Shown here: positions 9,459 to 57,605 of the stretch, in pieces
Numbering within the stretch: the first letter of the stretch is position 1
How the letters are laid out: every line of letters starts with the position of its first letter
Source: Blautia hansenii DSM 20583
GTDB taxonomy: Bacteria > Bacillota > Clostridia > Lachnospirales > Lachnospiraceae
Length of the DNA: 64,000 nt
Assembly: GCF_002222595.2 (NCBI RefSeq)
Contig: NZ_CP022413.2
Span: 693,501-757,500 of the forward strand
Reading direction: 5' to 3'
The notes under the pieces: model-generated
Seen by the model: only the letters and a program-made list of their open reading frames with translations
Databases searched by the model: none
Told to the model about the DNA's origin: nothing
Program-made: the position numbers and the translations under genes

Positions 9459-9459
9459 G

Positions 9460-9484
9460 GGAAAAGTCAAGAGTAAATGCGAAA
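9460..9484 (+). repeat. Left terminal inverted repeat (TIR-L)
   Basis: Begins GGAAAAG and ends TAAATGCGAAA; 21 of 25 positions match the reverse complement of 57581-57605. One extra G (9459) separates it from the 16-bp direct repeat. On the reverse strand it contains TCTTGACTTT (9472-9463), a -35 box pointing out of the element. Confidence 0.85.
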
Positions 9485-9502
9485 AAAATTAAATAAATTT
9501 TA

Positions 9503-10546
9503 TTAGGCCCCCAAAAGGGCGTCCATTTGCTCTTGAAATACTGCACTGGCTGGCAAAAATCCGAGGATCTTCCGTGGGTAGTTGTTCAGCCAGTTTGTTA
9601 TTGTCTGGATCACTTCGGCGCCGATCTCGTCGAAGTTCGTCCCCTTTGGCAGCCAGCGGCGGATCATCTTGTTGAGGTTCTCGTTGCTTCCGCGCTCGTA
9701 TGAGCTGTACGGGTGGCAGTAGTAGCACTTCGTCCGGGATCCCTCCGCCAGTATGCTACGTTCTATGCCGGGGCAGTCCGCAAACTCGCTGCCGTTGTCT
9801 ACGGTGATCGTTTGGAACACGTGAGGGAAAAGCTCACCCCATTCTTTTTCCAGATCGTCGAGGGCCTGCACCACGCTGGCCGCGCTTTTGTCCGGGAGTT
9901 TGGCCGTGATCTCATTCCGGGTGAGTCTCTCGGTCAGGACGAGGATCGCAGCCTTTCCCGGTCTGGCACTCACTACGGTGTCCATTTCCCAGTGCCCGAA
10001 GGTGGAGCGCTCGCCGATTATATCCGGGCGCTTTTCTATGCTTTCGCCCTTCGGTGCGCGTTTCTGAGCCTGTACCTTGTGGTAGCTGCGCTTCTTGTCT
10101 CCCTTAACCGGGAGGTCTTTGTTTGTGAGTCTGAGGAAGATCCCCTTCTCGATATAACTGTAAATGGTGTTTTTGCTCTTGATCTCCGTGTTGAACTGGA
10201 GCCCTTGTGCCTTGATTTCTCCCAGCACGGCCTCCGGGCTGTACTTTTCGTCTGCGATCTTGGTTTCTATATATTCAGCGAGGCGGTGATCGTTTCCGAT
10301 TTTCAGGTCGGCGCCTTTGGCTGCAAGGTTGGCCCGGTATTTCATTTCGCTGAGGTCTGAACTGTATCGGGTTTCCTCTGTCCAATCACTATTCCGGTGC
10401 GTGTACTGTCCGCGCTGCAGCTCGCGGTATATTGTGCTAATATGCACGCCGACAACTTCCGCGATCTCTTTCGGAGTCTTGCCGTCATTGTTCAGGGTTT
10501 CGATCCGGATCCTGTCGGATTTGCTCAGGTGTTTGAATCTTCTCAT
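9503..10546 (-). CDS. IS30-family DDE transposase, probable phage integrase
   Basis: 347 residues with the IS30 plan. The N-terminal helix-turn-helix runs over about residues 3-45 (KEIAEVVGVHISTIYRELQ). The catalytic core has the three acidic residues in WEMDTV, TVDNGSEF and RGSNENLNK, followed by the family's PKGTNF motif. The reading frame opens at 10621, but TTGGAGGTAAACCC precedes an ATG at 10546, which starts the conserved domain. It ends 19 bp inside the left inverted repeat and has no second inverted repeat of its own close upstream, so it is not a stand-alone insertion sequence. A terminator lies just ahead of it, which should hold its expression low in the prophage. It probably catalyses joining and cleavage of the phage ends (inference). 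Confidence 0.9.
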   Translation of the reverse strand: MRRFKHLSKSDRIRIETLNNDGKTPKEIAEVVGVHISTIYRELQRGQYTHRNSDWTEETRYSSDLSEMKYRANLAAKGADLKIGNDHRLAEYIETKIADEKYSPEAVLGEIKAQGLQFNTEIKSKNTIYSYIEKGIFLRLTNKDLPVKGDKKRSYHKVQAQKRAPKGESIEKRPDIIGERSTFGHWEMDTVVSARPGKAAILVLTERLTRNEITAKLPDKSAASVVQALDDLEKEWGELFPHVFQTITVDNGSEFADCPGIERSILAEGSRTKCYYCHPYSSYERGSNENLNKMIRRWLPKGTNFDEIGAEVIQTITNWLNNYPRKILGFLPASAVFQEQMDALLGA

Positions 10547-10564
10547 GGGTTTACCTCCAATATA

Positions 10565-10596
10565 CAAAAAATGAGGGGCAGCCGAAGCCGCCCCCT
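10565..10596 (-). terminator. Terminator ahead of the transposase gene
   Basis: Leftward hairpin of 8 bp (10594-10587 with 10582-10575) closed by a TTCG tetraloop and followed by a T-rich tail (10571-10565). It separates the XRE regulator from the transposase, so the transposase needs read-through or antitermination from upstream. Confidence 0.8.
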
Positions 10597-10610
10597 TGAA
10601 TGTGTGGTGC

Positions 10611-10871
10611 TTATTTCTCATACTCTGCTAAAAGCTCGGACGTTTCCGCGTCTGTCACTATATCTGAGAGTTTACAACTCAGCGCTTTACAGATCCGCAG
10701 CAGCGTGGAGAGCTGCGCCTTGCTTATATCCCGGTCGCCCTGTTCGTATTTCTGATACATTCGGACGTTTACCCCGGCGGCTTCCGCGAGCTGCGACTGG
10801 GAGAGGCCAGCGGCCTGTCTGAGCTTTTGCAGTTTTTCGTTTTTATAATTTACCTTTACCGTTATTTCCAT
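10611..10871 (-). CDS. XRE-type helix-turn-helix regulator, proximal to transposase
   Basis: 86-residue DNA-binding protein made almost entirely of one XRE/Cro-type domain (LRQAAGLSQSQLAEAAGVN, then MYQKYEQGDRD) with a short C-terminal tail. AAGGAGG lies upstream of the ATG at 10871. The gene sits between two leftward terminators, next to a divergent rightward promoter (10887-10915) that it may control. A role as lysogeny repressor or transposase regulator is inferred from position; the sequence alone does not say which. Confidence 0.85.
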   Translation of the reverse strand: MEITVKVNYKNEKLQKLRQAAGLSQSQLAEAAGVNVRMYQKYEQGDRDISKAQLSTLLRICKALSCKLSDIVTDAETSELLAEYEK

Positions 10872-10886
10872 GTGTCGGCCTCCTTC

Positions 10887-10915
10887 TTGACTTTGTTGTA
10901 GCCGGTGGATATAAT
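10887..10915 (+). promoter_or_regulatory. Rightward promoter divergent from the XRE gene
   Basis: TTGACT at 10887-10892, 17-bp spacer, TATAAT at 10910-10915: a near-consensus promoter. The 10 bases TCTTGACTTT (10885-10894) recur at the rightward promoter at 11525 and, inverted, in TIR-L. No rightward gene follows closely: the transcript would run antisense to the 41-residue gene at 10952-11077. Confidence 0.7.
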
Positions 10916-10945
10916 AAAGGCGGTGGGTGGGAATTTCCCACCGCC
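10910..10945 (-). terminator. Terminator after the 41-residue gene
   Basis: Leftward hairpin with a 9-bp perfect stem (10945-10937 with 10927-10919) followed by TTTATTAT. It overlaps the -10 of the opposing promoter at 10910-10915. Confidence 0.8.
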
Positions 10946-10951
10946 GAGCCT

Positions 10952-11077
10952 TTAGGACTGCTTAGGTTTTTGATTTGGCTTTATTGTTATCGTGATCCGT
11001 TCCACCGCTTCACTTCTTAAAGCCTTTTCGAGAACTTCGAGCAGTTCTTTTGTTTGCTTTTCTTTCTGTTCGTCCAC
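10952..11077 (-). CDS. Small 41-residue protein in the control region
   Basis: GTG-initiated frame of 41 codons (begins VDEQKEKQTKELLEVLEKAL, ends KPKQS) with AAAGGAGG 9 bases upstream of the start. Highly charged, mostly helical in appearance, no recognisable family. It is the first gene after the promoter at 11152-11180, whose spacer is a perfect operator-like palindrome, and is followed at once by a terminator. Being first behind a regulated promoter suggests a small regulator or anti-repressor, but that is a guess. Confidence 0.65.
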   Translation of the reverse strand: MDEQKEKQTKELLEVLEKALRSEAVERITITIKPNQKPKQS

Positions 11078-11151
11078 CGTTGTGTCCTCCTTTCGTTTCT
11101 TCTGTTTTCCTCCTTTTTTCTTACTCAGGTTTTCCCTTACCTTGTAATATT

Positions 11152-11180: not shown

Positions 11181-11213
11181 GCTCATTTCCTATATTTTCG
11201 CGTTTTTTTGCAT

Positions 11214-11484: not shown

Positions 11485-11498
11485 CCTTTCACCCTCCT

Positions 11499-11570: not shown

Positions 11571-11610
11571 AAAAGCGAATAAACGCAAAAAAGAATTAGG
11601 AGGGCATGGC

Positions 11611-16757: not shown

Positions 16758-16872
16758 AGCGGCACGGAAGCCGATGTTCGTGTTCACATTGCTGCGGGAG
16801 TTGTTGCCGTTGAGGTAGAACACACCAGCGTTCGCACCGTTGTTCCAGTTGCCCCCGCGATACACGCAGCGC
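16758..16872 (-). repeat. Template repeat (TR) of the retroelement
   Basis: 115 bp aligning without gaps to VR1 (17341-17455), and its first 105 bp align to VR2 (55337-55441). On the coding strand it is rich in AAC and AAT codons (it would read YRGGNWNNGANAGVF), the hallmark of a template tuned for adenine mutagenesis: 25 adenines lie in the 105-bp part shared with both copies. Each variable repeat differs at 14 of these and nowhere else. Confidence 0.96.
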
Positions 16873-17319: not shown

Positions 17320-18417
17320 TTACCGGATTTCCGGGATATAAGCGGCACGGAAGCCGAGGTACGTGGACACACCGCTGCGGGAGCCGGTGCCGTAGAGGTA
17401 GAACACACCAGCGTACGCACCGCCGTTCCAGTCGCCCCCGCGATACACGCAGCGCTCGGCTACGCCGTTATTCCACCACATGTAGTCGCCCTCGTATACG
17501 TCAGTAGTGACGTCAGAGTCCGGGAGAAGGGCGAGAGCGCGCAGCATAACTTTGGCAGCGTCTCCGATCGAGCTGTCGGCAGCAACCTGATAAAAGGCGC
17601 AGCTTCGGCTTTCATCTTTGGCGTTGGTGATCGAAGTAGAGTACGTCCACTTGTTGTTCACATAGTCCAGTTTTACGGTTTTACCGGAAACATGGGCGGA
17701 GCTGTCGGTCGTCTTGCTCTCAGGATCCACGAGGGCGCCGTCTGCGGCGTTGATAGCCTTCCAGCATGTGCTCGTTGCGTTCTGAGGGTTGTCCGGATCG
17801 GCTGCGTCGTTGTTTGCAAGGATCTGAAGCTCGCCCCAAACAAGGCGGATTCCTCCCTGCCATTCCCACACGTTGCCGTTCAGATCCCAGATACCAGCCA
17901 TGGTCTTGTCGTGGCTCCATGAGATCGGGCCGGTACCAGTTGCAACTCTCGCGATCTTGCCGCTTTCGTAGTAGCTCGGCACGGCTTTGTAATTACTTTC
18001 GCGGCTGTCTTTGCCGTAGTTGTTGTTACCATACGGGAGGAAGCCGTTTTTCTTGCACCAGAGAGCGATCGCGGCCCATTCTGCGTTAGTGCTCAGGTGC
18101 CAGCCTGCGCCCTTGGCCTCGCAGCGTGCGCGTGCGGTGTCGAAGTTGATACTTGCGGTCGGATCTTCGCCCGGCAGGCTGTACGCTACGGAGTTGTAAA
18201 CCTTGGCCTGATACTTGCCGTAGTAAAAGCCGGGGATTTCCACGCCGTTGACGATAAAGGCCGGGTGGGTGCTGTCATTTCCGCCGGTGAGTACGTCCGA
18301 GTTCTTAAACTTCGGGATATACACCAGAACGGAAGGGAGATCGGTGTCGTCTGTCTTGACGACGTTGTTCGGGCAGATCATTTTTACTGCCAGATTGGTG
18401 AGGTCAAAATTTGCCAT
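17320..18417 (-). CDS. Variable tail-region protein 1, C-type-lectin/FGE-like fold (DGR target)
   Basis: 365 residues. The C-terminal part has the formylglycine-generating-enzyme type of C-lectin fold used by retroelement targets (GWHLSTNAEWAAIALW, WDLNGNVWEWQGG, then YRGGDWNGGAYAGVF). VR1 occupies residues 321-359, so it ends six residues before the stop, as expected. The protein is the last of the tail/baseplate genes and directly precedes avd, so it is probably a receptor-binding or host-contact protein whose binding surface is diversified. AAAGGAG precedes the ATG. Confidence 0.92.
   Translation of the reverse strand: MANFDLTNLAVKMICPNNVVKTDDTDLPSVLVYIPKFKNSDVLTGGNDSTHPAFIVNGVEIPGFYYGKYQAKVYNSVAYSLPGEDPTASINFDTARARCEAKGAGWHLSTNAEWAAIALWCKKNGFLPYGNNNYGKDSRESNYKAVPSYYESGKIARVATGTGPISWSHDKTMAGIWDLNGNVWEWQGGIRLVWGELQILANNDAADPDNPQNATSTCWKAINAADGALVDPESKTTDSSAHVSGKTVKLDYVNNKWTYSTSITNAKDESRSCAFYQVAADSSIGDAAKVMLRALALLPDSDVTTDVYEGDYMWWNNGVAERCVYRGGDWNGGAYAGVFYLYGTGSRSGVSTYLGFRAAYIPEIR
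17341..17455 (-). repeat. Variable repeat 1 (VR1)
   Basis: Aligned without gaps to the template repeat: 14 differences, all at template adenines of the coding strand, changing to G, C or T. Both repeats end (coding sense) with GGCTTCCGTGCCGCT, the constant stretch where the initiation-of-homing sequence is expected. Confidence 0.96.
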
Positions 18418-47017: not shown

Positions 47018-47219
47018 TGGCTTGATCTCCTTTCTGTGATTTGTAGAGCCCGCAGCCGTTCCCGTTGTTCATACACGGATCCGGGGAGGCCATGTGGTGC
47101 ATACAAATTTTTAACGGTTCGCCCGTCTGTTTGTTTATGAGCTTTCCGCTCAGCATGGCGCAGGCTTTTGAAATTACAAAAGGCCCGACTCTGCGGAGCT
47201 CGCAGTATTCGCATTTCAT
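46992..47219 (-). CDS. Small cysteine-rich phage protein
   Basis: 75 residues, six to seven cysteines: CEYCELRR at the start and CMHHMASPDPCMNNGNGCGL later, consistent with zinc binding. The frame runs to 47369, but GAAGGAGGCACGCC precedes the ATG at 47219, which overlaps the recU stop. Function unknown. Confidence 0.75.
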   Translation of the reverse strand: MKCEYCELRRVGPFVISKACAMLSGKLINKQTGEPLKICMHHMASPDPCMNNGNGCGLYKSQKGDQANERRTAEQ

Positions 47220-47824
47220 GGCGTGCCTCCTTCCTCGGTGTAGTCGATCTCCACACCTTCCAGCAGTTTGAGGATCCCGGCGATATATTGCACGCGGTAC
47301 GGTTCCAGATCTTCGAGCTTCATGTGTTTGCGCCCGTAGATCTGCTTCATGTCTCGCCATACTTCCCACGGTACCCGGTAGAAGTTTTCCAGCCCCACGC
47401 TCACCATGATGAAGGCAGCAGCTCCGAGCTTGTGGTGCAGCGTCAGACTTTCCACCTGCTCAGGAGTGAGGCGGCTCTGGTCGATCTTGTCGCTGTCGGT
47501 GTGTTTCGCCTCAAATACCACGGCCCGGCCACCGGTGAGCGTTCCCTTGAAGTCCGGCTGTCCGGCTTTGGTGTAGCAAGCAAGGAAACGGCCCTGTCGG
47601 TCTGGCTTCCTGAGTGGCTTCATGGGCTCCGGAGTCTTTTCAACGAAGGCCACGCCCTTGTCGCAGTACCAGTTCAGGCTTGCGGTGATCATATTCTCGA
47701 AGTGTTCACCGGCTCGCTTGCTCTGGAGTCCTTTCTGGCTATGCTGCACCCGTGCAAGGGCGGTGCTTGCTGTTGGATCCGGGTAGCCTTCGCCATTTCT
47801 TCCCGGAACCGTGTCCCAGCTCAT
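47216..47824 (-). CDS. recU: RecU-like Holliday junction resolvase
   Basis: 202 residues. RecU family core: KRAGEHFENMITASLNWYCD, the nuclease motif GQPDFKGTL...VFEAKHTD and FYRVPWEVWRDMK. It cuts four-way junctions during recombination and phage replication. ATGA overlap with the upstream gene, CGGAGG upstream. Fits with the ERF annealing protein and SSB in the same operon. Confidence 0.87.
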   Translation of the reverse strand: MSWDTVPGRNGEGYPDPTASTALARVQHSQKGLQSKRAGEHFENMITASLNWYCDKGVAFVEKTPEPMKPLRKPDRQGRFLACYTKAGQPDFKGTLTGGRAVVFEAKHTDSDKIDQSRLTPEQVESLTLHHKLGAAAFIMVSVGLENFYRVPWEVWRDMKQIYGRKHMKLEDLEPYRVQYIAGILKLLEGVEIDYTEEGGTP

Positions 47825-48360
47825 TGATCTACCTCCGAGTCTGCGCCTTTGTCGGCCTCCAGTGTGATGTCGTGGCCGGGGTGTCGTCTGAGCTCGATCG
47901 CAAGGTCTAAGATCATTTCGCCATTGATCCGCACGGTGGTGGATTCAATCGCGGCGACGCCGTTCAGGTGCCCGACGTGAGAAGGGAGAACGATCAGTGC
48001 GTCACCGATCGGAAGTGTTTCGGCTTCGCGGTTTCTGTAAAGCTCGGCAGCGTCCCGGATCGGGATCTGGTGCTGCTTTGCGTATTCGATCTCGCTCCTC
48101 ATGCCCTCGCTCGGATTCTCGATACCGTAAACCCAGAGCTCGTCACACATGGCCAGAAGTGAGAGGCCCATGTCCATGCCCGCGGCGCGTTCCTCCTGCT
48201 TGGTGTCGTCAAGAAACTGGGTAAAATATACATGAGGCGCGATCGGGATCACGTCGTCCCAGAGCTCGACGGCTTCGCGACAGTAGCGCTGGGCTTTTTC
48301 TATGTTCTTTTCAACGTCCCCGCGGCACGGGGAGCAGATGTAAACCAGTTTTTTTCTCAT
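47821..48360 (-). CDS. DUF4406/nucleoside deoxyribosyltransferase-like protein
   Basis: 179 residues. The first 110 have the deoxyribosyltransferase-like Rossmann plan (VYICSPCRGDVEKNIEKAQR, RAAGMDMGLSLLAMCDELWV, SEGMRSEIEYAKQ) seen in small phage proteins, perhaps acting on nucleotides. The remaining 60 residues are not recognised. GAAAGGAG precedes the ATG; overlaps the recU start. Confidence 0.75.
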   Translation of the reverse strand: MRKKLVYICSPCRGDVEKNIEKAQRYCREAVELWDDVIPIAPHVYFTQFLDDTKQEERAAGMDMGLSLLAMCDELWVYGIENPSEGMRSEIEYAKQHQIPIRDAAELYRNREAETLPIGDALIVLPSHVGHLNGVAAIESTTVRINGEMILDLAIELRRHPGHDITLEADKGADSEVDQ

Positions 48361-48866
48361 GCACTTGCTCCTTTCATGGTTTTGCTCAGCAGCTCATTGT
48401 ATAAATTCCGGTAGAGATCGCGCTCAGTTTCGAGCTTGATCTTTTCAACGTCTGGATCCTGCTGGACGATCCGGAGTGGCTGCTTGCTTATTTCTTCCAG
48501 TAAATGCTCCGCTTCTTTGACTGCGGGCTTCGGATCCATGAAGTCGATCCCCAGAGAGATTGCCAGAGCAGAGTCCACGGCTGCGAGCTCGCTCTTTGTC
48601 AATTTTCCGATCAGCGTCCCGATCCTTTTCACGCTTACGCTGTTTACCTGTTCGCATAAGACGGTAGAAGGGGAGAGTGCGCTCCGGATAAATACATGAG
48701 TTGGGAGGTCGTTTTTTGGTTTGGTGGTCATGTATACCACTTCCACAACCTCGCTGTTTTCGTTGTTCTTGTCATTGGAGACGATCACCGCAGGACGGCC
48801 GCCTCTCTGCTCGCTTCCGGTTTCCCGGTATGTGCTTTCGATATAATAAATTTCACCGCGTTTCAT
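48357..48866 (-). CDS. MazF/PemK-type protein without an adjacent antitoxin
   Basis: 169 residues. The first 115 match the PemK/MazF fold: MKRGEIYYIEST, RGGRPAVIVSND, THVFIRSALSPSTVLCEQVN and KRIGTLIGKLTKSELAAVD. In known members this is an endoribonuclease. A 50-residue helical C-terminal extension (EKIKLETERDLYRNLYNELL) is added. Neither neighbour looks like a MazE antitoxin: upstream is a methyltransferase overlapping by 4 bp, downstream the DUF4406 protein. The extension could be the inhibitor or a partner-binding part. Confidence 0.83.
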   Translation of the reverse strand: MKRGEIYYIESTYRETGSEQRGGRPAVIVSNDKNNENSEVVEVVYMTTKPKNDLPTHVFIRSALSPSTVLCEQVNSVSVKRIGTLIGKLTKSELAAVDSALAISLGIDFMDPKPAVKEAEHLLEEISKQPLRIVQQDPDVEKIKLETERDLYRNLYNELLSKTMKGASA

Positions 48867-49753
48867 GGTTTGGCTCCTTCCTGAGCAGCCTCAGCGAGTC
48901 GCTGCTCTTGTATTTTGCAGGTGTCGGGGTTAATCTCTATCCCGATATAGTTCCGCCCTTCTTTGAGGGCTGCGGCTCCTGTGGTTCCACTTCCTGAGAA
49001 TGGATCCAGAACCGTGTCGCCCGGTTTGCTCCCGGCCAGTATGCAGATCTTGGCCAGTTCCTCCGGGAACGTGGAGAGGTGGGCGCCCTTATATGGCCGT
49101 GTGGCGATCGTCCAGACGTCCCGGCGGTTTCGTTTGCCGGTTTCATTTCTCTGGAGCCCGTGGCTGCCTCGATCCACCTCGGCGCTGTTGGCTTTGGCCT
49201 GATCGTGAGTGTAGGCAGTGCCGCCGCGGAAGGTTTTCGCGTTGCCGCGCTTCCGGCCGGGCTTTTTCGGATCGTACCCGACGGCCAGCTCCTTGACGGC
49301 CTCGGCGTCGTAGTAATAGGCGGCCGCTTTACTGAGTAAAAAAACATACTCGTGAGATCTTGCCGGTCTGTCTTTGGCGCTTTCTGGCATGGCGTTGGGC
49401 TTGTTCCAGATAATGTCCGCCCGGAGGTACCAGCCGTCACTTCTGAGAGCCAGAGCCAGCAGCCACGGGATCCCGATCAGATCCTTGCGCTTGATCCCTC
49501 CGTCCTCGATATGCCTCGCGTAGCTGTCGCCGATATTTAGCCAGAGGGTGCCGTCGTCTTTCAGGACTCTGGCGACTTCCCGGAAGGCTTCCACCAGCTT
49601 GCGGGTGTATTCCTCCGGAGAGCTTTCGGTTCCGAGCTGATCGGCGGCTCCGTAGTCTCTGGCGTTGTAGTAGGGTGGTGAAGTTACGCAGACGCTGCAG
49701 CATTTGTCCGGCAGCTTTCTGAGTTCCTCCAGTGCGTCACCTTGTAGGATCAT
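48863..49753 (-). CDS. TSPPY-type DNA methyltransferase (probably N4-cytosine)
   Basis: 296 residues. Motif IV is TSPPYYNARDYG, the form typical of N4-cytosine enzymes, and motif I near the end is DPFSGSGTTGAAAL, giving beta-class order. ADIIWNKPNAMPESAKDRP and AKICILAGSKPGDT lie between them. GGGGAGG precedes the ATG. No restriction partner is near, so it is an orphan enzyme, the second or third methyltransferase of this phage. Confidence 0.9.
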   Translation of the reverse strand: MILQGDALEELRKLPDKCCSVCVTSPPYYNARDYGAADQLGTESSPEEYTRKLVEAFREVARVLKDDGTLWLNIGDSYARHIEDGGIKRKDLIGIPWLLALALRSDGWYLRADIIWNKPNAMPESAKDRPARSHEYVFLLSKAAAYYYDAEAVKELAVGYDPKKPGRKRGNAKTFRGGTAYTHDQAKANSAEVDRGSHGLQRNETGKRNRRDVWTIATRPYKGAHLSTFPEELAKICILAGSKPGDTVLDPFSGSGTTGAAALKEGRNYIGIEINPDTCKIQEQRLAEAAQEGAKP

Positions 49754-50433
49754 CCCAGCACCTCCCCTCTGAGTTCGAGCTTCGTTTGTTCGACGATCTG
49801 GCTCTCCAGTCGGAGGGCACCGCGGGTGATAGCCTCCATTTCCTGCTCTTTCCTGCGGCGTTCGCTTTCCCTGTACTCTATCAGGCGTTGGCCTTTGTCC
49901 GGAAGGGATCCGGCCGCGTTGTCGATCTTCTCGGTTAATTGTGCCGGTGTCATGCTGCGAGACTTTTCCCGTTCGTACATTGGCGTGTACTGTTGCATGA
50001 AGGCTACCCGATCCATGCCGGGCTTGCCGCCTATGTATGCGCTGCGGTGCATTTCCCAGAGGGAAGTCCAGCCGATTGACTCAACGGCCCGCGCCACCAG
50101 AGGCGGGAGCTGGTGGGAGAGATCTCCGTGGTTGAATTGTCCGGCGCTGTACATGAGGTCGCTCACGGCCAGCCATGCCTTGTCCGGCTCTATGAGTTCC
50201 GGGTGCTGGATCTCCAGCATGATCTCCCGGACTTCGGCCACACTCGGCGGCCATTTGTTTGTTGCAATGTGTTTTTTTACTGCCAGCGCTACGATCCCGG
50301 ATTCGTCTTGCTCAAACATCATGGCCCAGAGATTCACCGTGGCCTCGATTGCTTTCGCGTCCTTGAACTTGTCAAAATTCGGGTAGGCGGTGACGACGAT
50401 CGCCACCAGTCGAGCCGCGTCTGCTTTTGTCAT
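49750..50433 (-). CDS. Helicase loader/inhibitor, G39P-like
   Basis: 227 residues. The N-terminal domain (MTKADAARLVAIVVTAYPNF, VNLWAMMFEQDESGIVALAV, PPSVAEVREIM) resembles SPP1 G39P, the protein that loads or restrains the replicative helicase at the phage origin. ATGA overlap with the replisome organiser gene immediately upstream, the usual pairing. The C-terminal half is charged and helical. Confidence 0.8.
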   Translation of the reverse strand: MTKADAARLVAIVVTAYPNFDKFKDAKAIEATVNLWAMMFEQDESGIVALAVKKHIATNKWPPSVAEVREIMLEIQHPELIEPDKAWLAVSDLMYSAGQFNHGDLSHQLPPLVARAVESIGWTSLWEMHRSAYIGGKPGMDRVAFMQQYTPMYEREKSRSMTPAQLTEKIDNAAGSLPDKGQRLIEYRESERRRKEQEMEAITRGALRLESQIVEQTKLELRGEVLG

Positions 50434-51296
50434 ATCTCGAAGCCTCCTTCCTCGTCTGCGATTATCCCCGCGAGCACGTCCATGGTGTCAGGTTTTCCAC
50501 AATTTCCACCCGGTCGCTGTTGATAGCTTCCGGATCCGGCAGGTGGGAGAGGTTCGTCGTCCCAGCGTCCCTGATTGATCCATGTTGACGGGTTGGGAAT
50601 GAAGCGGCCACCTTCTCGCAGCCATTGTTCCGAGGTTTTAGCTGTTGCCACTGCCTGCATGATCTTCTCGAACAGTTCAGCGTCGGGTTTTGCCTTTTCC
50701 CATGCCTTCTGTGCTGCTTTCTTGCCGACTTTCTTCGGGTATGCAGTCCAGAACTCTGCGAAACGTCGTTCCTGAGCGTTTGGCTGCTTCTCGGCTGCGG
50801 GGGTTATGGGGGCATCCCCCTTATTTTCTGGTCTACTCTGGTCTACTCTGGTCTGGTCTACTCTACCTGCGGTCTTTTTCTGGTCGCTCTTGCTTACGTC
50901 CGCATACTGTCCGGCGGTCGTCCTCCGGTCGTTTGACTTGGCAGCAGCGCGGCGGGCTCTCGAACGGTTTTTCTCATTTTCTCGTTGTTCGATCAGCTTT
51001 CCGGTGTACTCGCTCCAGTCGTGGATCTCCAGAACGCCGTCCTCCGTTACGTCCAGCAGAGACGCAGAGGTCAGGGCGGCCACAAATTCCTCCGGATCTT
51101 TGTCCCACTGGGCCGCTCTTGCGATCATTCTGTCGGATATTCCAGCGAGGGATCCGTCCGGTGCGTTATCAATGGCCCAGAGCCAGAACGAGATCAGCAG
51201 GCCGAGCATGTGAGCCGGTTCAATATCGAGCTCGTCAGCAGCAGCCAGCACCTTGCGGTGGTCTTTCAGTTGTTGGTGAATTTGGATCCATGCCAC
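50430..51296 (-). CDS. Replisome organiser/DnaD-like protein
   Basis: 288 residues. N-terminal winged-helix domain typical of phage replisome organisers (WIQIHQQLKDHRKVLAAADE, RAAQWDKDPEEFVAAL, IHDWSEYTGKLIEQ), a low-complexity hydrophilic linker with many Arg/Asp/Gln, and a C-terminal helical part (FAEFWTAYPKKVGKKAAQKA, NPSTWINQGRWDDE). It would bind the phage origin and recruit helicase and loader. A GTG at 51305 overlaps the ribosome site; AAAGGAGG fits the GTG at 51296. Confidence 0.85.
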   Translation of the reverse strand: MAWIQIHQQLKDHRKVLAAADELDIEPAHMLGLLISFWLWAIDNAPDGSLAGISDRMIARAAQWDKDPEEFVAALTSASLLDVTEDGVLEIHDWSEYTGKLIEQRENEKNRSRARRAAAKSNDRRTTAGQYADVSKSDQKKTAGRVDQTRVDQSRPENKGDAPITPAAEKQPNAQERRFAEFWTAYPKKVGKKAAQKAWEKAKPDAELFEKIMQAVATAKTSEQWLREGGRFIPNPSTWINQGRWDDEPLPPAGSGSYQQRPGGNCGKPDTMDVLAGIIADEEGGFEI

Positions 51297-51382
51297 TGTC
51301 GGCACCTCCTTTCGTGGTTTGTTTCTGGTTCGGCCGTAGAGTTCCGCCGGTCTGTCCGGCGGTCGTCCTTCGGTCGGTGTTA

Positions 51383-51784
51383 TTAGTTAAAAGGAAGCTG
51401 TCCGTCGTCCGGTATGTCCATGAATCCGTCGTTGTTGGCGGGCTGAGGATTGCCATTTGCGTTGCCTCCGTTGCTGTCTGCGAAGTAAATGTTTGAGGCC
51501 ACAACTTCCACGGCCTTGCGGTTCTGCCCGGTTTTCTCGTCCTTCCATTTACGGGTGGAGATCCGGCCCTCAACTACGATCTGGCGGCCTTTGGAGAGGT
51601 AGCGGCCGCAAAACTCGGCGCGTTCTCTCCAGCACACGATCGGGATATAGTCCGGAGCGGCGTCTTTGTTCTTACTCGGTACCTGCACGGCGAGGTCGAA
51701 GCTCGCCACTGGTGTGCCACTCTGTGTGTATCTGATTTCAGGCTCCTGAGCCAGACGGCCCAGAAGCTCCACATGATTAAGCAT
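51383..51784 (-). CDS. ssb: Single-stranded DNA-binding protein
   Basis: 133 residues. OB-fold SSB with LGRLAQEPEIRYTQSGTPVA, FCGRYLSKGRQIVVEGRIST and KWKDEKTGQNRKAVEVVAS. The acidic C-terminal tip (DIPDDGQLPFN) keeps the usual proline-phenylalanine feature. AAGGAGG precedes the ATG; the start overlaps the ERF gene stop. Confidence 0.95.
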   Translation of the reverse strand: MLNHVELLGRLAQEPEIRYTQSGTPVASFDLAVQVPSKNKDAAPDYIPIVCWRERAEFCGRYLSKGRQIVVEGRISTRKWKDEKTGQNRKAVEVVASNIYFADSNGGNANGNPQPANNDGFMDIPDDGQLPFN

Positions 51785-52607
51785 TGTCTTGTCCTCCTTG
51801 CTGCTTTGCGTTGTCCATAGCGGCGCAGGCTTCGTCGTACTGGGCCCGCGTCAGGTTGTGCGGATCCTGCTGTCCGTATTTTTTCAGGATCCATTCGTTG
51901 ATCGACTGCTGAGAGTACCCGGCGTCCTCGCCTTTACGGTAGAGGCGGGAGAGCTGAGCGTCTGAGAGTGGTCGTGCGGCGCCTGAGCGCCCCGTCTGGC
52001 CATTTTGTGCCTGCGGCTGGGTGTTTCCTTGCCGGTTCCCGTTCTGAGCTCCTGTGTGCTGTTTCTGGCTCTGCTGAGGCGGTTCGCTGCTGTGGTCGCT
52101 CATGTCTGGATCGTCGTCGCCCTGATCAATGCCGAACTTCTCGAACAGGTAGTATTTGAGGCAGTACGTCCACGCGGAGCCTTTGGCCTTGTCCGGGCCT
52201 CCGTCGTTCGTTCCGATTGCGTGTAGAGTAACTTCCAGAGTCTCATCCGGGTTGTCTGCGTTCGTCCAGCGGATCGTGAGGTCGGCCTCGTACACCCAGA
52301 CAATGCGGTCGCCGTTTCTGGTGTGCTGCGTGAAGTTGGAGTAGTAGATCGGATCCCCGTTTTCGCTGTGCCGGGTTGCCTGCTCGCCTACAATGTCAAA
52401 ATTGACGCCGAACTCATTCATGGCCGGAGTGAGAAGCTGGTACACGTCGAAGATCTTCGCGAACTTGTACTTTACGCCGTCGCTGTGGGCCTTCTGGGTG
52501 ATAGAGGGAACGGCTTCGCGCAACTTGATGAACTTCTGCTGCAGCGTCAGCGGTACCGGTGGGGTGGTGGCCGTCTTTGTGGCCGCCGTTTCCTTTGCTG
52601 TTGCCAT
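51777..52607 (-). CDS. ERF-family single-strand annealing protein
   Basis: 276 residues. The ERF core spans about residues 20-165 (LQQKFIKLREAVPSITQKAH, KYKFAKIFDVYQLLTPAMNE, GSAWTYCLKYYLFEKFGID). A long Gln/Asn/Gly-rich linker leads to a short C-terminal helical domain (SDAQLSRLYRKGEDAGYSQQ). It anneals complementary strands in phage recombination, working with the SSB gene next to it. AAGGAGG precedes the ATG. Confidence 0.88.
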   Translation of the reverse strand: MATAKETAATKTATTPPVPLTLQQKFIKLREAVPSITQKAHSDGVKYKFAKIFDVYQLLTPAMNEFGVNFDIVGEQATRHSENGDPIYYSNFTQHTRNGDRIVWVYEADLTIRWTNADNPDETLEVTLHAIGTNDGGPDKAKGSAWTYCLKYYLFEKFGIDQGDDDPDMSDHSSEPPQQSQKQHTGAQNGNRQGNTQPQAQNGQTGRSGAARPLSDAQLSRLYRKGEDAGYSQQSINEWILKKYGQQDPHNLTRAQYDEACAAMDNAKQQGGQDNA

Positions 52608-52618
52608 GTGTTACCTCC

Positions 52619-53275
52619 TTACACGTCCACCGTGAAGGTGTCCGGTTTCTCAATGATCTGCACGCCATCCACCAGCTCGCCGGTGGTTTTGTCTACGATC
52701 TGGCCGCCTACAATTTCGAGGCGCTTCCTGAACTCGCCCCACTTCGGCTTTTCAGTGTTCTGGATCATATCCTCATTGCCGGAGGCTTTCAGATAGGCCA
52801 GCAGTGTGTCGTCGTCCTGTTTCATGGTGCTGCCGCCGATTTTCTTCACCAGAGTGCCGGAGAGAAGGCGGTAGCTGTGTTTTGTCTTGGTTGTCTTGTG
52901 CGGGACTGTCTCGAAGTATTCCGCGAGCTTTCCAGTGAGAAAACGGGTGCCGTTTTCATATCTGCGCTGAGCAGCGTCGATTCTCTGCTGGATCTTCTCG
53001 ATCTGGCTTTCGCCCAGTGCGGTGATCCGGTCGAGCTCGGTCTTTTCTTCTGCGATTTTTCGGCAGGCCCAGTCGGCGCAGCCGTCGTCAGTGATACGCC
53101 ATGCCGGGCGCGGAGCGCTTTCGGTTTCCTCTGCGTCGAACATGTTCATGTCCATGCTTTCCAGTTCGTCCAGTGTTACAGCCGGAGTTCCCGGCTCTGT
53201 GGTGGGTGCTGCGATTGTTTCTTTGATTTCTGCGGCCTGCTCAGCCTCAGCTATTGCTTTCTTTGTCGTTGCCAT
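52619..53275 (-). CDS. Gam/Gp157-like DNA-end-binding protein
   Basis: 218 residues. The ordered part (ADWACRKIAEEKTELDRITA, GESQIEKIQQRIDAAQRRYE, LTGKLAEYFETVPHKTTKTK, SYRLLSGTLVKK) is the plan of Mu Gam-like and Gp157-like proteins that bind double-strand ends and block host exonucleases. GAAGGAG precedes the ATG. Upstream of ERF and SSB, so it belongs to the recombination set. Confidence 0.82.
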   Translation of the reverse strand: MATTKKAIAEAEQAAEIKETIAAPTTEPGTPAVTLDELESMDMNMFDAEETESAPRPAWRITDDGCADWACRKIAEEKTELDRITALGESQIEKIQQRIDAAQRRYENGTRFLTGKLAEYFETVPHKTTKTKHSYRLLSGTLVKKIGGSTMKQDDDTLLAYLKASGNEDMIQNTEKPKWGEFRKRLEIVGGQIVDKTTGELVDGVQIIEKPDTFTVDV

Positions 53276-53498
53276 GGTTCTGTTCTCCTTCCTTTGCTTC
53301 CAGAGCCTTGCGGGCTTTCTGGAGTTCTGCCTGCGTGTCTCTCAGTTCCTTGTCCTTGCTGGTGAAAAACTGGTACCACTCGCCTGAGCTTTTCTTGTAC
53401 TGCTCGGCTTCGGCCTCGGCAGCGGCGGCGCGTTCCGCCATGCTGGCAAGTGCAGCCGTGAGCTCTGCGATCACGCTTGGCTTGTTTTCGTTATTCAT
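53247..53498 (-). CDS. Small coiled-coil protein
   Basis: 83 residues, almost wholly helical with heptad features (AELTAALASMAERAAAAEAE, LRDTQAELQKARKALEAKE). ATGA overlap with the upstream gene; it overlaps the Gam-like gene start by 29 bp. Function unknown. Confidence 0.7.
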   Translation of the reverse strand: MNNENKPSVIAELTAALASMAERAAAAEAEAEQYKKSSGEWYQFFTSKDKELRDTQAELQKARKALEAKEGEQNHGNDKESNS

Positions 53499-54250
53499 TC
53501 GGTTGCCTCCTTAAAAAATCGGTGTCCGTTAATGGTCATTACATAGATCTGGGACTCGTGCCACTCGCTGTCCGTGAGAGCGGGAGCGTAAAAGTATTTG
53601 ATCGGCTCGGTCGTTGCCACGATCCCGAAGTCGAACACGTCCTGCACGGCTTCGAGGGCTTCCTGAGTCGGTTCCGGGCGGCGCTTGCTATATGCGTACA
53701 CGCGCAGCACTTCGTCCGGTCGGATCCCTTCATCCTCGCAGGTCTGGAGAATACACTGAGCTACTGCGATCTTTCCGGCGAAGGGTTCGCCTCCAGCTTC
53801 GGCCGTGAGCACCTGAGCAATCTCCAGTCGCTCGGCGTCAGTGAGAGCGTAGCGCTTCTGGATCCCTGCCTCTGCGGCCCATGCGTCTGTGACGTCCTCC
53901 CAGCTTACGGCTTGCCCGTCCTTGTAGTAAAAAACGTAGGGCTGAGATTCCTCGGCCGCCGGGCTGCTGGTTGTGATCGGGGCTGTTTTTGTTTGGGTGT
54001 GTTCTGAGAACATACCCACGACGCCGCGCACTGCGAACACGATCACCACTGTGGTGACTGCCAGCCCGCCGATCCCTTTCCAGTTCAGGCGCTTGCAAAA
54101 ACGGCGCAGCTGGTATAAAATAGGCTTAGGCTTTCGCGTGGTTTTTCGATTGCCTGTGCGGCTTCCCGGTTCCGACGGGTGGCCGCTTCTTTTTTCTTTG
54201 TACCCGGTGTATTCCACCGGGCTGTATACTCTCAGCGAGCTACTTCGCAT
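53495..54250 (-). CDS. Membrane-anchored SleB-like cell-wall hydrolase
   Basis: 251 residues. A basic N-terminus, one membrane segment (about residues 58-80, GIGGLAVTTVVIVFAVRGVV), a Ser/Thr/Pro linker, then a domain of the SleB/hydrolase-2 type: RLEIAQVLTAEAGGEPFAGK and IAVAQCILQTCEDEGIRPDE, with the conserved glutamate, and VYAYSKRRPEPTQEALEAVQ. Unusual in an early replication operon instead of the lysis block. AAGGAGG precedes the ATG. Confidence 0.8.
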   Translation of the reverse strand: MRSSSLRVYSPVEYTGYKEKRSGHPSEPGSRTGNRKTTRKPKPILYQLRRFCKRLNWKGIGGLAVTTVVIVFAVRGVVGMFSEHTQTKTAPITTSSPAAEESQPYVFYYKDGQAVSWEDVTDAWAAEAGIQKRYALTDAERLEIAQVLTAEAGGEPFAGKIAVAQCILQTCEDEGIRPDEVLRVYAYSKRRPEPTQEALEAVQDVFDFGIVATTEPIKYFYAPALTDSEWHESQIYVMTINGHRFFKEATE

Positions 54251-54255
54251 TTCTG

Positions 54256-54990
54256 TTACCTCCTTCTTTGTCTGAGTTTGGCCGGGAGCGTATAGCTCGG
54301 AGCCTGCATGTATTTGTTGAAATTCTGTGGCCAGTAGGCCACCTTTTCGATCCGTTTCCCACTTACTCCATACTTCGGGTTATATCCGAACACGTTCACA
54401 TAGCTGAGAAGATCGGAGCGTTCCGCGTCCATGGCCTTGCACACCTCAAACAGTGCCGCCACGTCGTCGATCGCTCTGTGGGAGTTCTGAACCTTGTCCT
54501 CCAGCTTATAGGTGAGGATCGCGTTCGCCAGCTTGTGAGGATATGCCCGGCGGTCTTTGTAAACGGTTAGGCTGTCCAGATAGTCGGCAGCTTTCAGGGC
54601 TTCCGGGCCACCGTTTCCGTGTCTCCGGAGCATTTCAGCAGTAAACAGGAGATCAAACTGTGCATTGTGGGCTACCAGAAGGACGCGGCCGCCGCCGATC
54701 AACTCAGTGAAGCGAGCGGCAGCCTCAGCCTCGGTGATTCCTTCGTTTTCGAGCTGCTCGTCTGTGATTCCTGTTAGCTCGACGATCTTCTGAGGGATCC
54801 GCTCACCTTCCGGCAGCTTCACGAACACGTCGGCGCTGTCGGCCATGCGGAGGGTGCCCCGTTCGGTTTTCTCGACTCTGATCGCTGCCAGTTCAATGAT
54901 CTGGCAGCTTTCAGCTTCGAGCCCGGTTGTCTCAGTGTCAAAAAATACGACTGCTTTGTATTTCGTGAATACGTCCCGGAGCTCATTCAT
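54256..54990 (-). CDS. DnaQ-like 3'-5' exonuclease
   Basis: 244 residues, DEDD exonuclease: VVFFDTETTGLE (motif I), AHNAQFDLLFT (motif II) and HRAIDDVAALFE (motif III, DEDDh). Resembles the proofreading epsilon/PolC exonuclease. The start overlaps the end of the variable protein gene by 8 bp; CGGAGGTG precedes the ATG. It may proofread or trim recombination ends. Confidence 0.9.
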   Translation of the reverse strand: MNELRDVFTKYKAVVFFDTETTGLEAESCQIIELAAIRVEKTERGTLRMADSADVFVKLPEGERIPQKIVELTGITDEQLENEGITEAEAAARFTELIGGGRVLLVAHNAQFDLLFTAEMLRRHGNGGPEALKAADYLDSLTVYKDRRAYPHKLANAILTYKLEDKVQNSHRAIDDVAALFEVCKAMDAERSDLLSYVNVFGYNPKYGVSGKRIEKVAYWPQNFNKYMQAPSYTLPAKLRQRRR

Positions 54991-56245
54991 GGTCGTTCAC
55001 CTCCGTTTTAATCGTGATCAAGGTCGTGGTTGCGAGCTTTAACTGCTTAGAGGTCAGCTCGTACATGTCCACGGCTGCGTTCACCTGAGCCAGTGTAGCG
55101 CTGAGCCTTGCGGCCTTGGCGAGTTCTTCGTCTGTTGCCTTCTCGGCCAGTTCAGCGAAGCCTTCCGGATCCTCGCCGTGCGCGGCTTCGTAGAGCTTCT
55201 GAAACTGCCGGGCGAGTGCCTGCTTGATTCGTCCGATAAAGTCCGGAGCTAAAATGCTACGCTTTTTCGGTTCTGGCTGCTTCTTGTCAGAGTCCAGATC
55301 GTCCAGAGTGTCAGAGTCGCAGATAAACCGAACGCAAGCGGCACGGAAGCCGAGGTACGTGTACACATAGCTGCGGGAGTAGGTGCCGCAGAGGCAGAAC
55401 ACACCAGCGTACGCACCGTTGCCCCAGCCGCCCCCGCGATAAATAACCCGCTCGCCGTTAGAGTCGAGCCAGAAGTATTCGTCGCTTTCGTAGTCGTCGG
55501 CAGGATAGAGGCCGAGGTCTTTCAGCTTGTCCGGTGCGTCCATGTCGCTGCGAACTTCCAGATCCGTGAACTTTACGCCGTCGTAGTCGGTGCCGTCCGG
55601 GTGTACCGGTTGGAGGGTGATCTCTCCGTCGTGTACGTTGTAGTAAACCGGATCGCCGTCCTCGGTGTAGATCGCCTCCCACTCCGGCGAGTCTTTGGAC
55701 TGATCCGAGCCATAGGCTGCGCCGTTGTTCGGGATCACCTGCGGCATACCGTTCATAAATCGAACGCCGCCGACGTGCTCCCAGATATTGCCGCACATGT
55801 CAGCTACGCCGTAGGCCGTGCCGTCATGGTTCCACTGAACCGGGCCGGATCCGGTCAAGGTCTTGCCGCAGCCTCCTTCGTATGTAGTGCCGGTCTGCTC
55901 CGAGTGGCTGTGACTCTTGCCGCTTGCGGTGTTTCCGGTCGGCATGGTGTCGTTGTCCCAGCTCCAGAAGCCGAGAGCCACCCACTCGTCGTTTGTGATC
56001 AGGTGCCAGCCTTCGCCCTTGCTCTCGCAGAGGCGGATCGCTTCGTCGTGGCTGATATTCACAGCCGGTTTCATAAATGGGAGAGAGTACGGAACGCCGT
56101 CGATCAATGTGTTCGGGTATTTGCTTATCGCGTATTCCTTGACCTTGCGGCCTCTCAGGGTGTCAGGGAGTCCCAGCTCGGACGGGGTAAAAACCACCAT
56201 AATGTCCGGGCGCCCGTTTTTGTCGTAAATTACTTCGTTTCTCAT
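54983..56245 (-). CDS. Variable protein 2, C-lectin/FGE-like fold with C-terminal extension (remote DGR target)
   Basis: 420 residues. The first 300 are a formylglycine-enzyme-like C-lectin domain (GEGWHLITNDEWVALGFWSW, GVADMCGNIWEHVGG, then YRGGGWGNGAYAGVF). VR2 encodes residues 269-303. Unlike typical targets the protein goes on for 117 residues after the repeat: a Lys/Pro linker (KKQPEPKKRS) and a helical part (AELAEKATDEELAKAARLSA). The gene is in the early operon, next to an exonuclease, far from the tail genes. A frame opens at 56353, but AAAAGGAGC fits the ATG at 56245. Confidence 0.9.
   Translation of the reverse strand: MRNEVIYDKNGRPDIMVVFTPSELGLPDTLRGRKVKEYAISKYPNTLIDGVPYSLPFMKPAVNISHDEAIRLCESKGEGWHLITNDEWVALGFWSWDNDTMPTGNTASGKSHSHSEQTGTTYEGGCGKTLTGSGPVQWNHDGTAYGVADMCGNIWEHVGGVRFMNGMPQVIPNNGAAYGSDQSKDSPEWEAIYTEDGDPVYYNVHDGEITLQPVHPDGTDYDGVKFTDLEVRSDMDAPDKLKDLGLYPADDYESDEYFWLDSNGERVIYRGGGWGNGAYAGVFCLCGTYSRSYVYTYLGFRAACVRFICDSDTLDDLDSDKKQPEPKKRSILAPDFIGRIKQALARQFQKLYEAAHGEDPEGFAELAEKATDEELAKAARLSATLAQVNAAVDMYELTSKQLKLATTTLITIKTEVNDHE
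55337..55441 (-). repeat. Variable repeat 2 (VR2), 38 kb from the template
   Basis: 105 bp aligned without gaps to the template repeat at 16758-16862: 14 differences, all at template adenines of the coding strand. Beyond 55441 the sequence is unrelated. It differs from VR1 at many of the same positions but with a different pattern, so the two were diversified independently. Confidence 0.95.
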
Positions 56246-56420
56246 GGTTTTGCTCCTTTTCTGTATTTGCTGCGGCAGATCGGGCACTTGTAGCCGTACC
56301 ACGGGATCACCGCCTGCTTGCTTACATTCCAGTCCAGCCCGCACTCTTGGCATACTTCATAGCGGCAGCCGTCGCGCCGGGCATGAGTACGGGCCCGCTT
56401 AGGTTTCGCGAGTCGTTCAT
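56242..56420 (-). pseudogene. Zinc-ribbon protein with an apparent one-base frameshift
   Basis: ATAGGAGGTGATCCC and ATG at 56420 start a frame that gives an unlikely 32-residue peptide. After about five codons the -1/+2 frame instead reads PKRARTHARRDGCRYEVCQE, CGLDWNVSKQAVIPWYGYKC and PICRSKYRKGAKP, a clean four-cysteine zinc ribbon ending in TGA that overlaps the next ATG. Adding one A at GCGAAACC would join them. Either a small mutation, an assembly error or a shift site. Confidence 0.6.
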
Positions 56421-56431
56421 GGGATCACCTC

Positions 56432-57247
56432 CTATCCAGCGGCCAGCCTGCTGCATAGCTGCCTCATAAGCAGCCGCTTGTATTTCTTCCGGGTTCTCCA
56501 TTTCCGTGCGTGTTTGTATAGGTGCCACCATTTCTGGTGGGTGTTGGCTCTATATAGTAGGGAGTCCACAAAAGTGTCCACGGCTTTTCGTGCGTATTGC
56601 CGGAACTTCTGGAACCGTTCCGCAAGCTCGTCCATGAGTTGTCGGACTGCGCGAGCTGCTGCCTTCATTGCGTCGGCGAGAGCGTCGAGCAGGGCAGTGG
56701 CGGCAGGTGGGCCGATCTGGATCGTGAGCTCTGTGTGCTGAGGTTCTGGTGGCGACTCGTCCGGGAGTGGATCGCTTCGCGCCTGATCCGCAGCTATGAG
56801 CTGCTGGCGTTTCTCGTAGTCCTCGACGCTCATGTAGCCGTCGAATATATATGGATCCGGTTCCTCGGTGGTTTCCTTGCCGTACCATGGCATATCTGCC
56901 GGGAGATTTTCCGGGCGTGGTATCGGCTCAGGAGGGAAGGCTGTCGAGTTTTTCAGGAGATTGCAGCCGCCTTCGTAGTGCCAGAGAATACCGGCCTCCA
57001 GTTCTGCGATCGTCATGTTCTCGCCGAAGTGCCCGCAGTAGTAGCCGTTCACCATGACAGCGTTCGGATCCTGTTCCAAAATTTCGGCGGCAGTGCTCAG
57101 ATCCTCCAGCTCGAAGGTGTCGGAGTCTTGGTTGAGCCAGACGCTTTCAGCGTGCCAGCTTCGGCCAGTTTTCCATATAATCACCCACGCTATACCGTCG
57201 CGGATTTCTTCGGCGTACTGCCGAGCTATTTCGTGTAATGCTGCCAT
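56432..57247 (-). CDS. Unknown early protein, 271 residues
   Basis: The N-terminal half (LHEIARQYAEEIRDGIAWVI, WLNQDSDTFELEDLSTAAEI, VMVNGYYCGHFGENMTIAEL) looks like a globular phage protein with no family known to me. The second half is helical and, towards the end, very basic (HLYKHARKWRTRKKYKRLLM), suggesting DNA or RNA binding. The frame extends to 57298, but GAAAGGAG precedes the ATG at 57247. Second gene of the early operon. Confidence 0.7.
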   Translation of the reverse strand: MAALHEIARQYAEEIRDGIAWVIIWKTGRSWHAESVWLNQDSDTFELEDLSTAAEILEQDPNAVMVNGYYCGHFGENMTIAELEAGILWHYEGGCNLLKNSTAFPPEPIPRPENLPADMPWYGKETTEEPDPYIFDGYMSVEDYEKRQQLIAADQARSDPLPDESPPEPQHTELTIQIGPPAATALLDALADAMKAAARAVRQLMDELAERFQKFRQYARKAVDTFVDSLLYRANTHQKWWHLYKHARKWRTRKKYKRLLMRQLCSRLAAG

Positions 57248-57267
57248 GTTGTCGCTCCTTTCTTTTT

Positions 57268-57516
57268 TTATATAGTGGTGGATTTTCGCCCGCGGCACTT
57301 AAAGCTCTCAATGAGTCGGCGCTGGGCGAGTTCGGCGCTATACTCTCGGCGCATGTTCTTGTCGAGCTGGCCGGTGTCGCCTCTTTTCAGTTCTTTATAG
57401 ATAGTCGCCACATGGACGCCGAGGTCGATCGCAATGTCGGCCGGACGTCCTCCGGCTGCGTATTCCGTCTCGATTTTCTCGCGGTCGCCGAATGTCAAAT
57501 ATCGGTAGTTTCGCAC
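57268..57516 (-). CDS. Stand-alone IS30-type helix-turn-helix protein, first early gene
   Basis: 82 residues. LTFGDREKIETEYAAGG and DIAIDLGVHVATIYKELKRG align with the DNA-binding domain of the phage's own IS30 transposase (LSKSDRIRIET; EIAEVVGVHISTIYRELQRG). There is no catalytic domain. The frame extends to 57588, but AGAGGTGAGAAC precedes a GTG at 57516. It lies 65 bp from TIR-R and is the first gene of the leftward early operon. It may bind the phage ends and regulate the transposase or the end promoter (inference). Confidence 0.8.
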   Translation of the reverse strand: MRNYRYLTFGDREKIETEYAAGGRPADIAIDLGVHVATIYKELKRGDTGQLDKNMRREYSAELAQRRLIESFKCRGRKSTTI

Positions 57517-57580
57517 GTTCTCACCTCTCTTTCTGTGCTTTTCAGGTAAAAAAATAATGCGTCCGGAGGCTTTCGCTTCC

Positions 57581-57605
57581 TTTCGCATTTAATATTATCT
57601 TTTCC
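57581..57605 (-). repeat. Right terminal inverted repeat (TIR-R)
   Basis: Read leftward it begins GGAAAAG and ends TAAATGCGAAA; 21 of 25 positions match TIR-L. On that strand it contains GATAATATT (57599-57591), a -10-like sequence pointing into the phage early operon. Confidence 0.85.

Follow-up and report, generated by a model that had tools for sequence, protein, structure and literature searches.

The window analysed here is the whole stretch of 64,000 nucleotides (G000:C1:693501-757500) within the 3.07-Mb single-contig genome of Blautia hansenii DSM 20583, and a prophage occupies its positions 9459-57605. The prophage encodes a tail sheath, a portal, a head protein and both terminase subunits, in agreement with a previous sequence-only reading of the window, which had described a contractile-tailed phage that uses an IS30-type transposase as its integrase. 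It aligns with Faecalibacterium phage FP_Lagaffe (NC_047911, Lagaffevirus; Lagaffe below) at 97.0-97.7% nucleotide identity; the alignment covers nearly all of the 48.2 kb and consists of three blocks (30,448, 14,523 and 3,101 bp). Phages are placed in one species when they share >95% identity across most of the genome, and the window phage, judged by its sequence, belongs to Lagaffevirus lagaffe.

The prophage ends, designated R (9459-9484) and L (57581-57605), are terminal inverted repeats that agree at 21 of 25 positions (9460-9484 against 57581-57605), as had been read before. A degenerate search allowing ≤3 mismatches finds two copies of this repeat in the window, both at the phage ends, where 0.03 are expected from shuffled sequence; the earlier statement that no second inverted repeat lies beside the transposase gene thus holds. 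Directly outside the two ends is an exact 16-bp direct repeat, GCCGGCGGGTAAGATT (9443-9458 and 57606-57621).

The outermost gene at the R end (9503-10546, minus strand) encodes the predicted integrase, an IS30-family DDE transposase of 347 aa counted from the ATG at 10546; the open reading frame (ORF) extends to 10621. The protein matches the NCBIfam model NF033563 ("IS30 family transposase") with 238.6 bits against a cut-off of 80, and all five transposases scanned with this model score 232-246 bits. It contains an HTH_38 domain and a sub-threshold match to rve, and its DDE triad (D194, D257 and E297) falls in columns that are invariant in a 12-sequence alignment. A search of the PDB with the transposase profile returned one weak helix-turn-helix (HTH) match only. 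Consistent with the claim that the phage lacks a tyrosine or serine recombinase, no integrase of either type was found among 39 distinct phage proteins scanned with PHROGs or Pfam, a scan that covers the small ORFs only in part.

At the opposite end, the early genes (47216-57588, minus strand) head away from the L end. The first of them (57268-57588, minus strand) encodes a small HTH_38 protein of 106 aa (phrog_11420), which aligns with the DNA-binding part of the transposase and is of the same DNA-binding type. The rest of the early region includes an LPD15 protein, an FGE-like protein that is a target of a diversity-generating retroelement (DGR), an exonuclease, Gam, and ERF, SSB, RecU and a protein with a helicase-loader domain, the last four of which had been recognised from the sequence before. 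Compared with Lagaffe, the transposase is 97.8% and the HTH protein 99.1% identical.

Part of this is known. In 2018, Cornuault and colleagues assigned the Lagaffe integrase to the IS30 transposase family, found to their surprise that the Lagaffe prophage is flanked by direct repeats, located a cos site in virion DNA, and reported a 98% identical prophage in B. hansenii DSM 20583, cultures of which contain Lagaffe virions (PMC5883640). In a 2019 survey, twelve clusters of prophages were found to have transposases from the IS30, IS256 and IS110 families (PMC6907783). Because these reports precede our analysis, an IS30 enzyme in the place of a phage integrase is not new. The inverted end repeats, the duplication rule, promoter targeting and the junction promoter described below are not reported in the parts of the Lagaffe paper drawn on here (PMC5883640).

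Insertion sites

Related elements were collected by transposase searches and an HTH-profile search, as pairs of a transposase and a small HTH match 29-49 kb apart. Because the selection required it, the HTH gene at the far end of these elements is not an independent finding. Both ends were compared in 27 pairs, namely the window's own and 26 others, and 24 of them have an exact direct repeat of 14-16 bp at both ends (15 bp in 13 elements, 16 bp in nine and 14 bp in two), which provides the mapping of duplication lengths that had been proposed. Several of the 16-bp repeats become 15 bp plus a chance base once the ends are set by homology. The same may apply to the window, where the copy at the transposase end (9443-9458) is 15 bp plus one base that is maybe a chance match to the L-end copy (57606-57621). 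The 24 repeats are unrelated in sequence and are therefore derived from the targets.

Empty sites lead to the same conclusion. The flanks of an element, joined with one copy of the repeat, were searched against 20 genomes of the same genus, including the window's own. The site of the window prophage is uninterrupted in G520 (94% identity) and G518 (87%), with one diverged copy of the repeat in each; 13 of 16 repeat bases are kept in G520, where the alignment is gapless around the repeat, and 10 of 16 in G518, where a few gaps of one base interrupt the alignment close to it. The genome of the window also holds a second prophage that is integrated in this way (G000:C1:778500-814138; L005, L006), and its site is also uninterrupted in G520 (14 of 15 repeat bases) and G518 (13 of 15). 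Because the empty sites of both prophages hold one copy, the direct repeats are target duplications. The sequence-only reading had suggested a search for the same transposase in different host DNA; specifically, the transposases of G000_2 and G563_1 are 100% identical and their insertion sites are unrelated.

The window prophage sits in front of a penicillin-binding protein (PBP) gene, and the predicted host promoter of this gene lies just outside the R end. Its -35 box (TTGAAT, 9427-9432, minus strand) is 10 bp from the 16-bp repeat and is separated by a 17-bp spacer from the -10 box (TATAAT, 9404-9409, minus strand), with a score of 17.4. Both boxes are kept in five of five aligned same-genus sites.

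Pairs of -35 and -10 sites with a spacer of 15-19 bp were scored in both flanks of each of the 24 elements, reading outward, and an element was taken to pass if its best promoter-like site starts 9-13 bp beyond the repeat. Twenty elements pass (the window and 19 of 23 relatives). In all 20 the best site points outward and its -35 box lies 10-12 bp beyond the repeat, at 11 bp in 15 elements, 10 bp in four and 12 bp in one. With the same 24 elements, reversed flanks give one pass, the opposite strand gives one, and 300 shuffles average 2.07 passes, with no more than 6 in any of them. Across the first 22 elements, promoter scores average 14.8 at an offset of 11 bp, 11.3 at 10 bp and 10.7 at 12 bp, against a background of about 8.4 (range 7.0-9.4) at other offsets. 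Two elements fetched after the rule was formed, G660_1 and G660_2, both fit.

The promoter is on the transposase side in 12 of the 20 fitting elements and on the other side in eight. A partly overlapping set consists of transposase-side ends only, namely the 40 of 80 genome loci with a clear end on that side (the other 40 have none); here 19 of the 40 have their best offset at 24-27 bp from the end, where 2.7 are expected, and 21 have it elsewhere. These 21 loci and the eight complete elements rule out a promoter that is always on the transposase side. Terminators, considered as a second type of target because some of the 21 loci resembled them by eye, were dropped once eight of the 20 fitting complete elements proved to have their promoter away from the transposase side.

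Besides the PBP gene, the genes adjoining targets include those for 16S rRNA (G035_1), tRNA-Ser (G456) and tRNA-Phe/Gly (G609), and the second prophage is inserted in front of a gene that, judged from its sequence, is presumably lepA. At L271 (G456), the left end of a second element is found a few hundred bases downstream of the right end of a first, with the tRNA-Ser gene and its promoter between the two.

The strongest alternative holds that insertion is untargeted and that the insertions behind promoters are those which survive selection. It has some appeal, as housekeeping promoters (rRNA, tRNA and PBP) would tolerate an insertion upstream and a disrupted gene would not be tolerated. However, selection would not fix a distance, whereas the signal peaks at 11 bp and returns to background within 2-3 bp, and the single passes from reversed and from opposite-strand flanks are likewise at odds with insertion without regard to the promoter. 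We consider this alternative improbable.

Free forms and end junctions

Viral contigs related to the window phage indicate how the two ends are joined in free forms. The transposase gene runs directly into the small HTH gene through a closed junction in 27 of 76 distinct viral-contig loci. When the ends were defined in the same way throughout, 22 junctions could be parsed, and the spacer between the ends is 2 bp in 18, 3 bp in three and 1 bp in one. Related prophages of the four deviant types (G035_1, G282; G623) have ends that are one base longer or shorter, and with these ends the four junctions also read as 2 bp. The sequence-only reading had suggested a search for circle junctions. Closed junctions do occur in contigs of relatives, and all junctions described here are from relatives; for the window's own phage none was seen among the viral contigs.

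Six related contigs (L153, L154, L155, L157, L158 and L160) have six different spacers (TT, TC, CA, GT, AA and TA). Compared with L154, four of the five others differ within 60 bp at the two spacer positions only, and L160 is shifted by an upstream indel. Because the six contigs are 92-99% identical upstream of the junction, and 98.7-99.5% identical over the first 377 bp downstream and mosaic thereafter, they are to be read as close relatives and not as one genome. Two database records, nd12 and MT837638, have the spacers GG and GC. IS30 makes a 2-bp attack in circle formation, forms a circle with joined ends, and has a promoter, Pjunc, at the junction (PMC9333248). Variable 2-bp spacers are what IS30-type circles released from different sites would leave. 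The Lagaffe record itself joins TTTTCC-AAC-GGAAAAG; it is possibly rotated in silico and was not used as junction evidence. A search for Lagaffe's own site in F. prausnitzii A2-165, which covered 396 genomes of a related family, returned no near-identical copy.

The joined ends resemble a promoter. In the R ends, a TTGA(C/A) box points outward; in the window it is TTGACT (9465-9470, minus strand), the predicted -35 box of a circle-junction promoter. L ends carry a -10-like box, possibly TAATAT in the window (57592-57597, minus strand), where the neighbouring register AATATT, with a 17-bp spacer, was the one scored. When the ends of 22 elements were joined by script, on the assumption that the first two bases of the repeat form the spacer, 21 matched 9-11 of the 12 promoter-consensus bases and G563_2 matched 7; the L end in its prophage setting matches 6-9. 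The junction sequence is thus promoter-like and faces the early genes, and we infer that it is active.

These junctions bear on three further explanations. The direct repeats could be the attachment cores of a site-specific recombinase that has escaped recognition, and direct repeats around Lagaffe did surprise its authors (PMC5883640). However, a core would not be unrelated in sequence among 24 elements, identical transposases would not be found at unrelated sites, free junctions hold about 2 bp instead of a 15-bp core, and the 39 scanned proteins include no other recombinase. We regard attachment cores as very unlikely.

A second possibility, to which we assign an equally low probability, is that the phage replicates by transposition as Mu does. 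Like Mu-like transposable phages, it has a DDE transposase in the place of an integrase, and a Mu Gam-like protein is present. The enzyme of Mu-like phages is unrelated to the IS30-family transposase. The phage has a replication module, contigs with a closed junction of the ends are known from its relatives, and virion reads reveal a cos site for Lagaffe as opposed to variable host flanks for Mushu, a Mu-like phage of the same strain that packages host-flanked copies (PMC5883640). The published cos packaging also fits the earlier suggestion that, unlike Mu, the phage replicates off the chromosome.

Finally, the transposase could be a passenger, an insertion sequence that happened to insert close to the phage boundary, as the authors of Faecalibacterium phage FP01 read their IS30 gene (PMC13432834) and as real insertion sequences among its close relatives (G566) might suggest, but this is barely credible and already contradicted by the two inverted-repeat copies at the phage ends and by the same end-to-end layout in 24 elements and in free-phage contigs.

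Relatives of the transposase and proposed integration cycle

The second prophage of the genome is a siphophage, with terminase, portal, head and tail proteins, and is structurally unrelated to the contractile Lagaffe. Because both carry the transposase, the ends and the HTH gene, these move as a module between phage types.

A transposase tree was calculated from 23 of 33 chosen sequences. The phage enzymes, except that of G563_2, form one group (support 97/94), with a genuine insertion sequence from G566 and a gene of G024 as its nearest neighbours. Insertion sequences of the IS30 family from the same bacterial order duplicate 13 bp at two of two copies in G566, five of five in G493 and six of six in G296 (L295-L301, L307-L309, L323-L325). 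Three copies in G282 have duplications of 13 bp, none and 12 bp, two in G062 have none, and the boundaries of a repeat in G005 could not be resolved. Because insertion sequences of this broader branch duplicate 13 bp, the long duplication evidently extends beyond the phages, in which it is 14-16 bp. The record of the phiPV83 element annotates a 4-bp duplication. Judged from these sequences, the 2-bp duplication is a trait of IS30 and not of the whole family.

The pair G563_2 (G563:C1:1633966-1671867) belongs to a distant branch; its repeat is 14 bp long and its promoter lies at 22 bp. It groups with the insertion sequence of G493 and the G005 repeat, which hints that this phage-like pair might be a second, independent recruitment.

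Taken together, the recurrent ends, the empty sites and the IS30-like 2-bp junctions of relatives support the integrase role assigned to the enzyme by the sequence-only reading, which had not mentioned the 16-bp direct repeat, the HTH_38 protein at the L end, the second such prophage, the long duplication of the target, the fixed distance to a promoter or the promoter at the junction. We think it highly probable that the window holds a Lagaffe-type temperate tailed phage whose likely integrase, the IS30-family transposase, inserts it 10-12 bp behind the -35 box of a promoter-like sequence.

Several observations weigh against this conclusion. No direct repeat was found in three of the 27 pairs, namely G146 and G500, which are near contig edges, and G283 (G283:C35:7159-51598), which is unexplained and lacks a repeat within the stretches compared. 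In four of the 24 elements the best promoter-like site is off the distance: at 14 bp in G148, at 8 bp in G617 (with a slightly weaker site at 11 bp that scores 12.9), at 39 bp in G619_2 (with a weaker site at 10 bp that scores 14.9) and at 22 bp in G563_2. The 21 of 40 transposase-side loci with a best promoter elsewhere point the same way, although complete elements demonstrate that the promoter can be at the opposite end. Long duplications are also made by the related insertion sequences, and in these the promoter rule is weaker or unproved, the best promoter being 12-13 bp away in only 5 of 13 copies (G566, G493, G296). The host promoters are predictions from sequence, the window's junction promoter, at 9 of 12 bases, ranks lowest among the 21 matching ones, and that the transposase catalyses both circle formation and integration is what we infer.

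In the integration cycle that we propose, the transposase would first join both phage ends to form a circle, in the manner of IS30. The resulting end junction would build a promoter that drives the early replication genes from the L end, so that lytic expression would be turned on by excision, or by circularisation once a cell has been infected. For integration, the two ends of the circle would attack the target immediately behind a sigma-A promoter, at strand positions about 15 bp from each other, with the transposase guided by promoter DNA or by bound RNA polymerase. Through the duplication, the host promoter retains about 26 bp of its native sequence upstream of the -35 box, which should limit harm to the host. 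This is roughly the stretch touched by the polymerase alpha subunits, so the host promoter should keep working. In the weakest part of the proposal, the small HTH protein would also bind these ends and have a regulatory role. A 2-bp step at circle formation beside a 15-bp step at integration is unusual and poses a mechanistic puzzle, for which we offer a single explanation: the two steps may be two geometries of one enzyme.

A broader version is conceivable, although we hold it tentatively and with more doubt than confidence. It holds that phages of this type, in which an IS30-family transposase has replaced the integrase, are widespread in gut Firmicutes, that their IS30 enzyme reads promoter DNA or bound RNA polymerase and inserts 11 bp behind the -35 box, that the early lytic promoter is put together when the ends are joined and excision is thus the lytic switch, and that the small HTH protein, as the first to be expressed, decides between return and lysis.

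The phages share with IS30 of Escherichia coli and its family the type of transposase and, as predicted from sequence, the circle with joined ends and the junction promoter that are described for IS30 (PMC9333248). Ordinary IS30 behaviour, which the sequence-only reading had expected, does not extend to the target: IS30 duplicates 2 bp (PMC9333248), whereas all 24 elements with a repeat duplicate 14-16 bp.

Fixed-distance insertion upstream of sigma-A promoters has a precedent in TnGBS, ISLre2 and part of the ISKra4 group, which are likewise DDE elements that move via a circle and which insert mostly in one orientation (PMC3942029). They differ from the phages in having a Mutator-like transposase, where the phage enzymes match the IS30 family model and carry HTH_38, and in their distances: a duplication of 8-9 bp, a circle spacer of 6-10 bp and a -35 box 15-17 bp from the end (PMC3942029), compared with 14-16 bp, about 2 bp and about 26 bp, respectively, in the phages. 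Unlike the TnGBS group, the phages have the promoter at either end (12 and 8 of 20). ICE6013 of Staphylococcus is a large conjugative element moved by an IS30-like transposase, with a 3-bp duplication within an AT-rich palindrome. It is also named in the report on TnGBS (PMC3942029). In searches of the open literature, with ISfinder and most subscription papers outside their reach, neither IS30-family enzymes nor phages were found to have been described as targeting promoters, and the integration rule, that is, the promoter distance together with the long duplication, was not found in print.

If the promoter rule is true, such a phage could insert without breaking genes or core promoters and would have many possible sites per genome. 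A DDE enzyme with a promoter register would then offer a handle on how transposases read transcription complexes, which has been reported so far for the Mutator-like enzymes of TnGBS, ISLre2 and ISKra4 (PMC3942029).

Temperate phages are usually classed by enzymes of the tyrosine, serine or Mu type, and an IS30 gene is easily mistaken for a stray insertion sequence. Phage FP01 was called lytic with an "insertion sequence"; its gene table has an entry for an IS30 transposase and, three ORFs further along, one for a COG2826 helix-turn-helix protein of 84 aa, and of the two lifestyle predictors used, one gave temperate (PMC13432834). In view of the module described here, FP01 could be temperate.

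The prophage has further features. A Cro/CI-type HTH regulator (10611-10871, minus strand) adjoins the transposase gene. A MazF/PemK-type toxin domain is encoded in the early region (48357-48866), and no antitoxin was recognised among the scanned proteins. The DGR template (16773-16852) matches two variable regions, and over the 70-nt stretches compared the differences fall at template adenines only. Variable region 1 (17356-17426) is within an FGE-like gene (17320-18417) near the reverse transcriptase, and variable region 2 (55361-55431) is within the early-region FGE-like gene (54983-56353), 38 kb away; for the DGR of Lagaffe, one target gene is named in the part of the paper cited here (PMC5883640).

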